Origin: Alphaproteobacteria bacterium
Lineage (GTDB): Bacteria; Pseudomonadota; Alphaproteobacteria; ATCC43930; CGMCC-115725
Length of the DNA: 39,420 nucleotides
Direction: 5' to 3'
Assembly: GCA_030041385.1 (NCBI GenBank)
Contig: JASHNY010000219.1
Span: 1-39,420 of the forward strand
The notes beneath the pieces are model-generated. The model ran no database searches, was not told where the DNA came from, and saw nothing but the letters and a program-made list of their open reading frames with translations. The translations under genes were made by a program, and so were the position numbers. Below, in pieces: positions 11,038-16,999 of the stretch (position 1 is its first letter; the number at the start of each line of letters is the position of its first letter).

Positions 11038-11049
11038 CCGCGGTCAGCC
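11032..11049. terminator. Palindrome across two convergent stop codons
   Basis: GGCTGACCG followed by CGGTCAGCC is a perfect 18-bp palindrome. It contains the TGA of the glycosylase gene and, on the other strand, the TGA of the RpfC-like gene. It could form a short hairpin in either transcript and act as a weak bidirectional terminator. No T-run follows on either side, so this is uncertain. Confidence 0.35.
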
Positions 11050-13389
11050 CCGCATTGCGCCGGGCTGCGGCAGGTATTCGAGGAGCGCCGCTTCGAGGCG
11101 GGCGAGCTCGGCGCCAAGGCGCTGCACGATCGCTGCGCCCTGCTGCTGCAGTTCCGGCTCGGAGACCTCGCGCAACAACATCGCCAATTCGCCTAATTGG
11201 CCGCCGCCGACCGTTGCCGAGCAGCGCCGCAGCGCATGGACGGCGCGGGTGAAGCCGGCCGCGTCGGCCGCATCGGCGGCGGCGGCGACGCGCTCCATGA
11301 TCTGCCGAGCATCGGCACGGAAGCTGTCGATGACCTCGTACAGAAAATCGCCGCTGCCGAGCGCGCGCAGTGAGGCGACGACGCGGGCATCGACCACGGC
11401 CGCGGTCTCCGAGGCGAACCGCGGATGTGCGGCGATCGGGATCACCCCATCCGCCGCCGCGACGGGCGCGTCCGCCGCCATCGGCGGGCGGGTGCCGTCG
11501 GCAACGGCGGGGCTCGCCGCCGTCGCTGCGGCCGGCGCCAGCGGCAATGCATGCAATGCGTTTTCCAGCAGCTCGGCGTCGAGCGGAGCCGGCAATAGCG
11601 CGGCCAATTCGCCGTCGGCCAGTTCGGCGAGGTTTGCGCGCTGGGCGAAATCGACAATGAACAACACGAAAGGCGGCTCGGCCCGCGCCAGCGCGGCGCG
11701 ATGCACAAAGCTCAGCGCCGGGATCGCGCGGCGACGGCCATCGACGATGACCACCGGATTGAGCGGGGTGTCGAACCGCTCGACATAGACCAGCGCGTCG
11801 TCGAGCCCGCCGACCCAGCGCAGATCGGCATTCCAGGCGGCGAGCGGCTCGGCCAGTTCGGCGGCGAGCCTCGCGTCTTCGGTCGCGATCAAGACCGGGT
11901 GCCGGGCGAGATCGAACGGCGCCTGCGGCGGCGCGGCATCGACCGTCAGCGGCAGGCGCACCGTCCACCCGACCCCGCGGCCGGGATCGGCGGCGGCGAG
12001 CAGCCGGCCGCCCATCAATTCGACAAGCCGCCTTGCCACGCCGAGGCCGAACCGGTCATCGTCCGGCTGGGCGGCGGCTCCTTCGCGGCTGCGGATGTCG
12101 AGGCGCAGCTCCACGCTGCCACGGTCGCGGCGATCGGCGGCGAATTCGATGCGGAGTGTGCCGGCGCCTGACGCGGCAATGGCGGTAACCACCAGGCTGT
12201 TGACGATTTGCGCCAGTTGCCGCGGCCAGCCGCACAGCCGGTACGGCAGATGCGGGTCGATCCGCAATGCCAGCGCGATGCCCCGCTCCCCGGCGGCGGC
12301 GCGCAATACCGAAACGGCGTCGTTGACGATGGCGTGAAGGTCGAACGCCTCAACCGCCGGCGCAAACTCGCCCGCCTCGATCGCCGCCAGGTCGAGCACC
12401 TCGCTGATCTGCGACAGGAGCGCGCGGGCAGGCAGCGGCAGAGCGGGCGCCGCTTCGCCGGCGTCCGCTTCGATGGCCGGCACGGCGCCGGAAACGATCC
12501 GCCCCATGGCCGAGACCGGCGCGCGCAGGCCGCGCCCGAGCTCGGTCACGAACCGGGCGCGCGCCGCACTTGCCGCCGCCGCCTCGGCCCGTGAGCGCGC
12601 CGCTGCGCGAACCAGCAGGGCAAGGCCCGCCGGCGTCGCCGCAAGCGCGACCACGAGCCCCGCCGCCAGCCCTGGCTGCCCGCGCCAGAACGGGGTCGTC
12701 GCCACCACCGCCGCAAAGCCGACGACCCCGCTGGCCGCCGATACCGCCAGCGCACCGGGGCCGAGCCACAACCCGGCGCAGCAGATCGCTGCGAAGTAAA
12801 GGGGATAGCACGCGGCGGTCGCCGCCGCGCCGAAATGCAGGAAGGCCGAGAGCAGCGCGCAATCGAGCGCGATTGCCGCGTTGCGCCGCCATGGCGACGG
12901 CGTCCGGCTGATGATCGCCAGCAGCAGAAAGCACCACCCCGAGACGAGCGCGAGCATCGCGACCAGAAGGCTCGGCGCGGCCGCCGCGCCCGCCCGCACA
13001 ACGGCGACGGCGTAGAACAGCACCAGGACTTGCACGAAAATGCGTCCGATCGCGTGGCCGTGCTCCCCGTCCCGCCGGGCACGCCAATCGCGGCATAGCT
13101 GCGCCAGCCCCGACATTGTCGTCGCCGCCGCGACCGCCCCCGGCGCCAGAAGCAAGGCCGCGACCAGCGAGACCGCTGTCGGCCGCGGCCCGATCGCCAG
13201 CAGACCGCCGGGCAGGGTGACGACCGCGACGGGCGCCAGCAGGGCGGCCAGCACCAGGGTCGCGGCTGCGGCCAAGGCAGGGCGGCCGGCTCCCCGCCCG
13301 GCAGCAGCGGCGGGCAATGCGTTTGGCACCACGATTCGGGCGCGCCGCAACCGGTCGGTACTGCGCCGCAACGGCATCCTCGCCGACAA
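11044..13389 (-). CDS. RpfC-like membrane sensor with degenerate kinase core, receiver and HPt domains
   Basis: A 781-residue protein. The membrane region at about residues 40-262 resembles the DSF sensor RpfC: RRDGEHGHAIGR before the helices, PSPWRRN in the middle, and PFWRGQPGLAAGL before the last one. The kinase core follows but its active residues are gone. The phospho-accepting His of the H-box is Arg286 (ELGRGLRAP), the N-box asparagines are Ser398 and Thr402, and DxGxG is absent (IRSREGAA at 432-439). Only the FGLG of the G2 box remains. A receiver-like domain at about 498-612 keeps Asp550 but has Ala601 for the Lys. The C-terminal HPt domain keeps His718 (VHALRRCS). It starts at TTG 13389, after AGGA, 9 nt from the upstream stop; ATG 13377 is an alternative. 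It probably acts as a pseudokinase that relays or senses rather than autophosphorylates. Confidence 0.85.
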   Translation of the reverse strand: MSARMPLRRSTDRLRRARIVVPNALPAAAAGRGAGRPALAAAATLVLAALLAPVAVVTLPGGLLAIGPRPTAVSLVAALLLAPGAVAAATTMSGLAQLCRDWRARRDGEHGHAIGRIFVQVLVLFYAVAVVRAGAAAAPSLLVAMLALVSGWCFLLLAIISRTPSPWRRNAAIALDCALLSAFLHFGAAATAACYPLYFAAICCAGLWLGPGALAVSAASGVVGFAAVVATTPFWRGQPGLAAGLVVALAATPAGLALLVRAAARSRAEAAAASAARARFVTELGRGLRAPVSAMGRIVSGAVPAIEADAGEAAPALPLPARALLSQISEVLDLAAIEAGEFAPAVEAFDLHAIVNDAVSVLRAAAGERGIALALRIDPHLPYRLCGWPRQLAQIVNSLVVTAIAASGAGTLRIEFAADRRDRGSVELRLDIRSREGAAAQPDDDRFGLGVARRLVELMGGRLLAAADPGRGVGWTVRLPLTVDAAPPQAPFDLARHPVLIATEDARLAAELAEPLAAWNADLRWVGGLDDALVYVERFDTPLNPVVIVDGRRRAIPALSFVHRAALARAEPPFVLFIVDFAQRANLAELADGELAALLPAPLDAELLENALHALPLAPAAATAASPAVADGTRPPMAADAPVAAADGVIPIAAHPRFASETAAVVDARVVASLRALGSGDFLYEVIDSFRADARQIMERVAAAADAADAAGFTRAVHALRRCSATVGGGQLGELAMLLREVSEPELQQQGAAIVQRLGAELARLEAALLEYLPQPGAMRG

Positions 13390-13398
13390 GCCTGCGTC

Positions 13399-15003
13399 CT
13401 ACAGCCGCCGGCTCGACCCGCCGGCGGCAGCGATGGCCGCGGGCGGCGCCTCCGAACGCTCGGGCGGAAAAGCGACCGTGACCGTCGTGCCGGTGCCCTT
13501 GGCGCTGTGGATCGTCAGCGTTCCTCCGTGCAATTCGGTCAATCCGATCGCCAGCGGCAGGCCGAGCCCGGTTCCCGGATGCCGCCGGCTCCACGCGCTG
13601 GCGATCTGTCCGAACCGGCTCGTCGCCAATTCCACCTCGTGCGGATCCATGCCGATGCCGCGATCGGCAACCGAGACCGCCACGCCGCCGCCCTGGATGC
13701 GCAAGGTGATCTTGATCTCGCCGCCGGGGTGGCTGAACTTGATCGCGTTGGTCAGAAGGTTGAGCACGATCTGCTTGAATTTGCGGGAATCCGCGATCAG
13801 CCGCGGCACCGTTCCCTCGCTGCGCAGGTCGAGGCGGATGTCGCCGGCCCGCGCCTTGCCCTCGACCAGCAGCAGCACGTCGCCAACCGCCTTTGCCGGG
13901 TCCACCGTCTCCTCGAACAGGTCGAGCTGGCCGGCTTCGAGCTTGGACACATCGAGGATGTCGTTGATGATGCCGAGCAGGTGTTCGGCGCTGGCCAATA
14001 CATCGCGCGCATAGCCGATATATTTCTGGGTCGCGATCGGACCCAGCATTTCGCCCGCCATGATCTGCGAAAAGCCGATGATCGCGTTCAGCGGCGTGCG
14101 CAGTTCGTGGCTCATATTGGCGAGAAACTCGGTCTTGCTTTTGTTGGCGAGTTCGGCCTGTTCCTTGGCCGCGACCAGTTCCTGCTCCGCCTGCTTTTGT
14201 TCGGTGACATCGACCGACACGGTCACGACGATCGGGTCTTCGCCGTCGTCGCCGTGAAACAGCGTTTTGGTGGTCTGCAAGACCCGGCGCCGGTCGCCGT
14301 CGATCACGAACTCCTCTTCGAACGAGCCGGTCTGCACCTCACCGGCGATCAGGCCGGCATCGGCCTGCGCGAGGCGCCGCGCAAACGGCCCGTCATGGGC
14401 ATCGACCGGATGCCAACCGACAAGCTGCTTGGCCCGGCGCCCGACAAACGCGGCAAAGACAGTATTGACGAAGAGGTAGCGCCCGTCCTTGCCGGTCGCG
14501 CAGACGAGCGCCGGAATCGCGCCCAGCACCCGCAGCAGCCGCTCGTGCGCCTCGACCAGGGCGGGCCGCTGCGGGGCCTCCGGCGAGGCGCCCGGCTCCT
14601 CCTCCGTCGCCGCGCCCGGCTGCCGCCGCAATTGCAACAGGTTGCCGATGCGGGTGCGGAACTCGTGATGATCGACCGGGCTCAGCAGGTGGTCGGCGGC
14701 GCCGGCGGCCAATGCCCGGTCGATGCAGTCGCGGTCCTCGTAGGGGGCGATGACGACGACCGGAACCTCGGCGCAGCCCGGCAAGGCATGCAGCAGCGGG
14801 ATCAGGCGGGCCGCCTCGCCCTCCCCGCTTTCCCCGGCCATCGCCACCAGGTCGGGGCGCCGCTCGCGGCACAATTGGAACGCATCCGCCGATGCCCGGA
14901 AGGATTTCGCCTCGATCCCGCCGGCAAGCGAGGCCGCCAATCGCTCCAGAATTTTCAGATTGGTGATGCTGCTGTCGATGATCACCATCAGCGGCGATGG
15001 CAC
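13399..15003 (-). CDS. Hybrid sensor kinase: degenerate receiver - PAS - HisKA - HATPase
   Basis: A 534-residue soluble protein. Residues 1-127 form a receiver-like domain (MVIIDSSITNLKIL, RPDLVAM, AGAADHLLSPVD). The phosphoacceptor Asp is Ala56, the second acidic residue is Ser11 and the conserved Lys is Ser108, so it cannot be phosphorylated in the usual way. A PAS domain lies at about 150-268 and a short coiled coil at 268-290. The kinase core is complete: His299 in NMSHELRTPL, N-box LNLLTNAIKF, DRGIGMD and GTGLGLPLAIG. There are no membrane helices. The GTG start at 15001-15003 is used; ATG at 14988 is possible. It ends 9 nt before the RpfC-like gene, so the two are surely co-transcribed. 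It has an active kinase but no usable receiver or HPt, which its neighbour retains. Confidence 0.9.
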   Translation of the reverse strand: MPSPLMVIIDSSITNLKILERLAASLAGGIEAKSFRASADAFQLCRERRPDLVAMAGESGEGEAARLIPLLHALPGCAEVPVVVIAPYEDRDCIDRALAAGAADHLLSPVDHHEFRTRIGNLLQLRRQPGAATEEEPGASPEAPQRPALVEAHERLLRVLGAIPALVCATGKDGRYLFVNTVFAAFVGRRAKQLVGWHPVDAHDGPFARRLAQADAGLIAGEVQTGSFEEEFVIDGDRRRVLQTTKTLFHGDDGEDPIVVTVSVDVTEQKQAEQELVAAKEQAELANKSKTEFLANMSHELRTPLNAIIGFSQIMAGEMLGPIATQKYIGYARDVLASAEHLLGIINDILDVSKLEAGQLDLFEETVDPAKAVGDVLLLVEGKARAGDIRLDLRSEGTVPRLIADSRKFKQIVLNLLTNAIKFSHPGGEIKITLRIQGGGVAVSVADRGIGMDPHEVELATSRFGQIASAWSRRHPGTGLGLPLAIGLTELHGGTLTIHSAKGTGTTVTVAFPPERSEAPPAAIAAAGGSSRRL

Positions 15004-15195: not shown

Positions 15196-16128
15196 TCACA
15201 AACGATAGAATCGAGCAGCGTTGCGCCAGAAAAATTGTTCGCGCGCTTCCGGCGGTCGGTCGGCCAGCATCCGGCTGAGCGCCGCGACCAGAGCGCCGTA
15301 ACCGATGCGTAGTCCCGCCACCGGGAAATTGCTGGCGAACATCGCCCGCTCGATCCCGAAAATCGCGATCGCATCGAGCACGATGCCGCGGTTTTCGTGA
15401 TAGTCCCACGCCCGGTTCTTCAGCCCGAATTCGGAGATTTTGACGCACACGTTGGGTTCGCGCGCGACCGCCTCCATGCCGCGGCGCCAGGCCGCCAATC
15501 CTTCTTCGCTGCGATCCCACGGAAACCCGGTGTGGTTGAGCACGATCGGCGTGCGCGGAAACGCCCGGGCCACCGCCGCCGCTTCTTCGAGATGCCAGAA
15601 CGGCACCCGCAAATCCCACGACAGTTTGTACTTTTCGAGCAGCGCAAAGCCCTTGAGCCAGGCATCGTCCTGCATCGTGCCGGGCGCTCCGGCGATGCTG
15701 TGGCCCGGCGCGGCGGCGGTGACCGGCTTCGAGCGGATGCCGCGGACGAGCGGGCACGCCGCCTGGGCGGCGATGATTTCCTCGGCGTTCGGGGTGTGAA
15801 ACCAGGCATGGGCGACGATCGCGCCGGGAAACCCCTGTTGCGCATGGATCGCGGCGATCCAGCGCGTCTCGCCAAGCTGATCGGCGCGGTCCCATTCGGC
15901 CTCGCAATGCACGGTGGTCAGGACGTTGTGGCCGGCGGCGTCGCGGCGGTAATCCTCGGGCAGGTAGTTGCGGCGCAGCGCGCTGTCGTCGCCCATAAAG
16001 AAATCGCCGCGCGGCGGGCCGATCAGGTTGGGGTGTTTGCCCATCCCCAGGTCCCAGAGATGATGGTGCGCATCGATCAGGCTGATCGCGTCGGGCGCAT
16101 CGCTCCAGCGGGAGTGGATCGTTTCCAT
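15196..16128 (-). CDS. Amidohydrolase (L-fuconolactonase/TIM-barrel lactonase type)
   Basis: A 310-residue amidohydrolase_2-type TIM-barrel enzyme. It begins with the metal-binding strand IDAHHHLWDLG at residues 18-28. It continues with VLTTVHCEAEWD, WDLRVPFWH, PIVLNHTGFPWDRSEE and ends with AMFASNFPV, the conserved C-terminal strand with the usual Asp replaced by Asn. Relatives hydrolyse sugar lactones or pyrone/lactone intermediates such as 2-pyrone-4,6-dicarboxylate. The ATG at 16126-16128 has no strong ribosome binding site, but similarity begins right after it. It diverges from an enoyl-CoA hydratase gene across 79 nt. The substrate is not identifiable. Confidence 0.88.
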   Translation of the reverse strand: METIHSRWSDAPDAISLIDAHHHLWDLGMGKHPNLIGPPRGDFFMGDDSALRRNYLPEDYRRDAAGHNVLTTVHCEAEWDRADQLGETRWIAAIHAQQGFPGAIVAHAWFHTPNAEEIIAAQAACPLVRGIRSKPVTAAAPGHSIAGAPGTMQDDAWLKGFALLEKYKLSWDLRVPFWHLEEAAAVARAFPRTPIVLNHTGFPWDRSEEGLAAWRRGMEAVAREPNVCVKISEFGLKNRAWDYHENRGIVLDAIAIFGIERAMFASNFPVAGLRIGYGALVAALSRMLADRPPEAREQFFWRNAARFYRL

Positions 16129-16207
16129 CGGCAGTGCTCGCGGTACAGAAGTTGCCTGGCCGGCGGCGAAGTATAAGCTAGCGCCAATTCTGGTGGAGTC
16201 TGCGGAT

Positions 16208-16999
16208 ATGGCCGAATACGAAACCATCCGGGTCGACGACCGCGGCAACGGGCTGCTGCTGGTGATGTTGAACCGGCCGCAATCGGCCAATGCGATGAAC
16301 ACGCAGATGGGGCGGGACCTGCTGGCTTTGTTCGACGCGATCAACGCCGACCCGCTCGCCCATCGCTGCATCGTCGTGACTGGGGCCGGCGACAAGGCGT
16401 TTTGCGCCGGCGGCGACCTCAAGGAACGCCAGGGCATGAGCGACGAAGCGTGGCAGGCCCAGCACCTCTTGTTTGAGCGCATGATCCGCGCCGTCATCGC
16501 CTGCCCGGTGCCGGTGATCGGCGCGATCAACGGCGCCGCCTATGCCGGCGGCTGCGAGATCGCGCTGTGCTGCGATTTTCTCTATGCCGCCGAGACCGCG
16601 CGCTTCGCCCTGACCGAGGTGACGCTTGGCATCATGCCCGGCGCCGGCGGCACGCAGAACCTGCCGCGCGCGGTCGGCGAGCGGCGGGCGAAGGAGATCA
16701 TCCTGACCGGGCGGCCGTTTTCGGCAGGCGAGGCCTATGATTGGGGCATGGTCAACCGGCTGTGCACTCCCCAACGGCTGCTGGAAGAAACGATCGAGAC
16801 CGCCCGCCGCATCGCCGACAACGCACCGATCTCTGTGCGCCAGGCGAAACACGCGATCCATTACGGGCTGCAGATGGACCTGGCGAGCGGCATGATGCTC
16901 GAGATCGAGGCCTACAACCGCATGGTCCCGACCGAAGACCGCCGCGAGGGGATCGCCAGCTTCAACGAAAAGCGCAAACCGGTGTTCAAGGGACGGTAA
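16208..16999 (+). CDS. Enoyl-CoA hydratase/isomerase (crotonase family)
   Basis: A 263-residue crotonase. The first oxyanion-hole segment is KAFCAGGDL, and the second, INGAAYAGGCE, carries Glu117. The second catalytic glutamate is Glu137 in LTEVTLGIMPGAGGTQ. The 20-residue spacing equals that of Glu144 and Glu164 in rat enoyl-CoA hydratase, so hydratase activity is expected. The ATG at 16208 follows GGTGGAG at good distance; an in-frame GTG at 16193 lies inside that site. It is followed by a hairpin repeat and an MmgE/PrpD gene on the same strand, which could act on its products. It lies about 1.2 kb from the RpfC-like locus, but nothing marks it as the DSF synthase RpfF. Confidence 0.94.
   Translation: MAEYETIRVDDRGNGLLLVMLNRPQSANAMNTQMGRDLLALFDAINADPLAHRCIVVTGAGDKAFCAGGDLKERQGMSDEAWQAQHLLFERMIRAVIACPVPVIGAINGAAYAGGCEIALCCDFLYAAETARFALTEVTLGIMPGAGGTQNLPRAVGERRAKEIILTGRPFSAGEAYDWGMVNRLCTPQRLLEETIETARRIADNAPISVRQAKHAIHYGLQMDLASGMMLEIEAYNRMVPTEDRREGIASFNEKRKPVFKGR

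Follow-up and report, generated by a model that had tools for sequence, protein, structure and literature searches.

Organization of the locus

The window, by which we mean the whole 39,420-nucleotide stretch of DNA analyzed, carries on its minus strand an uninterrupted open reading frame with a TTG start codon (Table 1). Its product, the protein studied here, begins with a membrane input region that is an RpfC-type module with extra N-terminal helices ahead of it. The gene next to it encodes HK2, a histidine kinase with intact kinase motifs, and the 9 bp spacing suggests that the two are co-transcribed.

Table 1. Features of the RpfC-like gene and its partner in the window
Feature	Window positions	Strand	Residues and remarks	Basis
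Kinase-dead RpfC-lineage hybrid sensor	11044..13389	-	781 aa	ORF, domains, orthologues, tree
Membrane input region	12604..13284	-	36-262	Alignment with membrane region of RpfC-type proteins L120-L124; AlphaFold helices
Counterpart of RpfC DSF hook RxDSExxQ	13054..13077	-	RRDGEHGH, 105-112	Alignment
Degenerate DHp/HisKA	12355..12603	-	His replaced by Arg286 (12532-12534)	Family alignment
Degenerate catalytic domain (CA)	11926..12354	-	N-box Ser398/Thr402	Pfam and family alignment
REC1 pseudo-receiver	11530..11916	-	Asp550 (11740-11742) kept	Family alignment; structural match
Conserved linker motif with HPRF, directly before HPt	11404..11448	-		Alignment
HPt domain	11080..11403	-	His718 (11236-11238) kept	Pfam, alignment, AlphaFold
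HK2 partner kinase, REC-PAS-HisKA-HATPase	13399..15003	-	Directly upstream, same strand, 9 bp gap
HK2 receiver (rpfG-type)	14620..14997	-	Phospho-acceptor Asp replaced by Ala56 (14836-14838)	Alignment

The first-pass annotation had placed Arg286 at the H-box histidine and Ser398 and Thr402 at the N-box asparagines, and had reported the DxGxG box as absent; the translation and a family alignment agree on every one of these positions. Its conclusion that kinase chemistry is lost also stands, as the histidine, both asparagines, DxGxG and GxGxG are all replaced or missing, and the ATP-lid region is shortened. Despite this degeneration, the CA fold is still recognizable in an AlphaFold model and by structural matches. 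Pfam detected the HPt domain (E 5e-6) and, below threshold only, HATPase_c, and detected neither HisKA nor Response_reg in the protein.

The domain that follows CA, REC1, has the strands and helices of a receiver in the AlphaFold model without the key catalytic residues, and is in this sense a pseudo-receiver. The Asp-Gly pair at residues 550-551 is invariant, the conserved lysine is Ala601, and the Thr/Ser is also absent. All members of the same family, whether intact or kinase-dead, lack this lysine and keep the aspartate. The annotation was right that Asp550 and His718 are present, but the domain around Asp550 is a pseudo-receiver. A canonical receiver, with acidic pair, Asp, Thr/Ser and Lys, was not found in the protein; REC2, which sits upstream of the HPRF linker motif in intact relatives, is missing.

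The AlphaFold model has a mean pLDDT of 73, with the HPt domain a confident helical bundle of high pLDDT; because the overall pTM is only 0.45, domain packing cannot be read from it. Among its best matches to solved structures are ShkA, GacS, RetS and DivL, with full-length ShkA on top, and these are kinases regulated by protein contact or by a pseudo-receiver (PMC12632262, PMC4211667, PMC12148439). The DSF hook of Xanthomonas RpfC needs R15, D17, S18, E19 and Q22 (PMC5391125). In the alignment, three of these five essential residues remain in the window protein (Arg, Asp and Glu), while Ser is replaced by Gly and Gln by His.

Distribution of the kinase loss

We searched 61 related genomes for homologues; nearly all of the genomes compared appear to be metagenome assemblies, and some contigs stop near the locus, so that a gene not found may fall in a gap. 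Orthologues from the same genus are 40-46% identical to the window protein, a scan of named genomes found no relative closer than about 45% identity, and longer homologues, of about 950 aa, occur in other genera of the family. Contigs permitting, the positional orthologues mostly have HK2, uracil-DNA glycosylase and AstE-like genes as neighbors.

In a tree built with the kinase motif columns left out, 11 kinase-dead proteins form one clade (support 99/99) whose sister group consists of 11 proteins from the same family that are intact. In the window's group, the HisKA histidine, at least one N-box asparagine and DxGxG/GxGxG are gone from all 11 proteins, with a few single letters surviving. By contrast, every kinase motif (H, N, D and G positions) is kept in all 17 intact homologues outside the clade. 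A strain-specific pseudogene, which the annotation had named as an alternative, is rejected because the loss is common to the 11 proteins of this single clade. No orthologue carries the same Arg/Ser/Thr set that the annotation had proposed to look for in others; each has different residues at these positions, a pattern that would be expected after release from constraint. Intact boxes in close relatives, which it had weighed against its own reading, are absent from the same genus, where all orthologues are dead, and present in other genera of the family.

Other parts of the protein have changed within the clade as well. The HPt histidine is kept in only two of the eight positional orthologues, those of the window and of G007, and is replaced by Q, R, V, V, E and Q in the other six. 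REC2 is absent from the genus orthologues and from G017, and in G062 it lacks its aspartate. The DHp domain is shortened in some orthologues, and the N-termini are variable. Nonetheless, G062 and each of the six same-genus genomes with the gene have it long and in frame. Two further genomes of the genus, G002 and G004, yielded no RpfC-like gene; the absence from G004 may be a gap, since the partner gene there sits at a contig end.

Three same-genus genomes, including that of the window (G000:C215), have a second kinase-dead copy, which is a separate paralogue in the tree. This copy (L046:7723-10071 in the window's genome; also L043 and L044) lies inside a conserved flagellar cluster with flagellin, FliD, FliS and a double HTH regulator. 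The copy in the window's genome has lost most of its membrane helices.

Descent from an RpfC-type receptor

Intact homologues combine HisKA, HATPase, REC1, a canonical REC2 and HPt domains in one hybrid kinase. Close to most of them are a gene for an RpfF-type crotonase, identified by matches to RpfF structures and to the RpfF model of NCBIfam, and a gene whose product begins with an rpfG-type receiver. Two genomes with a crotonase above the curated RpfF cut-off have the order rpfG (REC-HD-GYP), rpfC, rpfF. The membrane module of the window protein aligns with those of RpfC-type proteins encoded beside rpfF and rpfG (L120-L122), which belong to the same lineage in the tree. Given this gene order in relatives and the aligned membrane module, we conclude that an RpfC-type receptor was the ancestor of the window protein, a kinship that the first-pass annotation had proposed from the membrane part.

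Near the rpfC-like genes, the rpfG-type receiver is fused to various outputs, namely PAS-GGDEF-EAL, HD-GYP and PAS-histidine kinase (L067:1133-3331, L120:2098-3264, L051:10002-11987). One RpfC-type protein, L120:3218-5989, has its membrane module, including a DSEH motif, twice in tandem.

We did not find rpfF, the gene for the DSF synthase, in any of the eight genomes with the dead gene, including that of the window. The crotonase encoded at 16193-16999 was rejected as a candidate DSF synthase because its scores are those of an ordinary enoyl-CoA hydratase, unlike the RpfF proteins of relatives, which match RpfF structures and the RpfF model of NCBIfam. Between this hydratase gene and HK2 lies an amidohydrolase gene (15196-16176, minus strand); in L066, the hydratase gene directly adjoins HK2. 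Plasmid records with an RpfF relative, considered as a source of RpfC proteins for comparison, have EAL proteins or unrelated genes beside rpfF, and no RpfC. Since the joint loss of RpfF and of the kinase is one event in the tree, and since G012 (99% complete) has an intact kinase yet no RpfF that we could find, this pairing does not count as independent evidence.

Selective constraint by domain

Within the genus, every segment of the gene shows far stronger conservation at codon position 2 than at position 3 (composition-corrected,.51 versus.16 overall), and neutral randomization of at least 30% of sites would leave on average at least six stop codons. Given this difference between codon positions and the level of identity among positional orthologues (40-46%), chance is excluded. 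With its autokinase residues lost and its gene conserved, the protein resembles histidine pseudokinases of the RetS/DivL kind; the observations that bear on regulation of another kinase by contact are its co-occurrence with HK2 and the paired losses.

As a yardstick for the individual domains, we used intact relatives with matched divergence of the HK2 kinase, and compared mean amino acid identity within the genus with that across the intact deep split. In the RpfC-like protein, DHp stands at.43 in the genus versus.73 in intact relatives and CA at.37 versus.63, REC1 at.46 versus.42 and HPt at.51 versus.52; the membrane region shows a moderate drop (.44 versus.53). The corresponding values in HK2 are.87 versus.86 for DHp,.72 versus.69 for CA,.59 versus.60 for PAS and.54 versus.76 for the receiver. 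Constraint fell mainly in the phosphate-handling domains, while REC1, the HPt fold and the PAS and kinase domains of HK2 are conserved as in intact relatives. The codon-position constraint and this per-domain pattern bear out the annotation's claim of domain-specific selection over uniform decay. Sequence comparison establishes the losses, their distribution in the clade, the co-retention of the two genes and the constraint pattern.

The partner kinase HK2

HK2 is present in all 19 family genomes with an RpfC-like gene, and the window copy stays beside it wherever contigs allow a check. None of the seven HK2s found in the genus has the receiver aspartate (A, S, A, A, A, A, A in its place). It is kept in g11 (G062 and G017), even though the kinase of the RpfC-like protein is dead there, so HK2 may have had another donor in that group. 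In G014, which belongs to another genus, the receiver aspartate of HK2 (L142, G014:C52, 6435-8033) is replaced by Asn, and no RpfC-like gene was found. The aspartate was thus lost twice independently, in the genus and in G014; coupling of the losses rests on these two events, too few for a statistical test. With the aspartate gone where no RpfC-like gene was found, the loss in G014 fits an HK2 receiver that had been fed by the RpfC-like protein. By parsimony, loss of the HK2 receiver aspartate would have followed that of the kinase motifs.

Proposed function and alternatives

We propose, with a probability of about one half, that the gene, the positional orthologue of RpfC-type hybrid kinases but stripped of kinase chemistry, now encodes a phosphorylation-independent membrane regulator of HK2. 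In the ancestor, phosphate would have passed from the protein's own DHp via REC2 and then HPt to the neighboring HK2, at its receiver, a route that we infer from the domain order and the RpfC-RpfG paradigm. The clade would have lost autophosphorylation first, and then REC2, most HPt histidines and, in the genus, the HK2 receiver aspartate; rpfF was not found there either. The membrane module would still respond to some input, and two conserved parts, the REC1 pseudo-receiver and the HPt fold, may contact HK2, perhaps through its phosphate-free receiver, and thereby control how active its intact kinase is. This contact, its direction and the ligand are what we infer. REC1 and HPt are the proposed surfaces because DHp and CA are the relaxed parts, and DHp heterodimers of the RetS type are disfavored because DHp is shortened in some orthologues. 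The fast evolution of the protein, at about 43% identity within the genus and with long branches that fit relaxed selection, speaks against a regulator, as does the pairing of a dead kinase with an intact HK2 receiver in g11.

The rate of evolution is a strength of the main rival, slow decay of a receptor gene in a clade that lost rpfF and DSF signaling, which we consider rather unlikely. Under this reading, the gene stays open because GC content is high and it shares an operon with HK2. Decay would account for the failure to find rpfF in all eight genomes with the dead gene, for the low identity and long branches, for the lost REC2 and variable N-termini, and for the lack of the gene in G002 and, with the caveat of the contig end, in G004. 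It is harder to reconcile with codon-position constraint in every segment, with conservation of REC1 and HPt at the level of intact relatives, and with long in-frame genes in six of six same-genus holders and in G062, along with a duplicate copy kept in three genomes.

Less probable still is a stand-alone fatty-acid or membrane sensor that acts on other targets, such as motility, independently of HK2. The second kinase-dead copy, beside flagellin, fliD, fliS and an HTH gene with no HK2 next to it, points that way, but it is a separate paralogue, and the window copy keeps its place beside HK2. The relay role suggested by the first-pass annotation, in which His718 and perhaps Asp550 accept phosphate from a different kinase and pass it on to some other receiver, is the least likely of all. 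Both residues are present in the window protein, the model predicts the HPt fold confidently, and a pseudo-receiver that retains its aspartate can keep weak activity (PMC12632262). However, the histidine is gone from six of the eight positional orthologues, REC2 is missing, REC1 has neither Lys nor Thr/Ser, and all seven genus members with HK2 have lost its receiver aspartate.

Returning to the regulator of HK2, we suggest more tentatively that what was once a fatty-acid phosphorelay of two proteins has lost phosphate chemistry from each of them (DHp, CA, receiver and, mostly, HPt in one, the receiver in its partner) with the receptor body and partner kinase kept under selection, and that protein contact is now the circuit's only means of signaling. 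Among bacteria, pseudokinases and pseudo-receivers are widespread. The literature searched, with subscription journals mostly outside its coverage, contained no kinase-dead RpfC. To our knowledge, the stepwise conversion of a phosphorelay to a phosphate-free circuit has rarely been caught. Here, related genera provide intact versions, intermediate ones with a dead kinase but an intact receiver in the partner, and fully stripped ones, all beside the same partner, so that the sequence of losses can be read and every stage can be tested with the proteins themselves.

Comparison with known systems

The window protein resembles RpfC, the DSF receptor hybrid kinase of Xanthomonadaceae, in its membrane input module with an RxDxE hook region, its DHp-CA-REC-HPt layout, the order of rpfG-type gene and rpfC in relatives, and an HPt domain with its histidine, though only two of the eight positional orthologues share the last. 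Unlike RpfC, it has no kinase motifs and no canonical receiver, has an added REC1 pseudo-receiver, and has two of the five hook residues changed. Its partner is a REC-PAS-histidine kinase, not REC-HD-GYP; no linked rpfF was found, and the rpfG-type receiver of HK2 has no aspartate.

Pseudo-receivers are known to control the kinases ShkA and CikA (PMC12632262, PMC7010744). As in ShkA, a Caulobacter hybrid kinase (PMC7010744), the CA domain is followed by a pseudo-receiver, and an intact orthologue aligns with ShkA over DHp/CA, REC1 and REC2; unlike the window protein, ShkA is an active kinase with REC2. DivL and RetS, which match the window protein in sequence and fold, are atypical histidine kinases that regulate another kinase by contact; they have different input domains, and contact in our case would be made through REC1/HPt. 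DivL (PMC4211667) and a ChrS variant (PMC9491836) are precedents for a kinase-dead partner. The ChrS pseudokinase, although dead in CA, continues to act as a regulator and pairs with a paralogous kinase in heterodimers, but it is a single laboratory-evolved protein with no paired loss in its partner.
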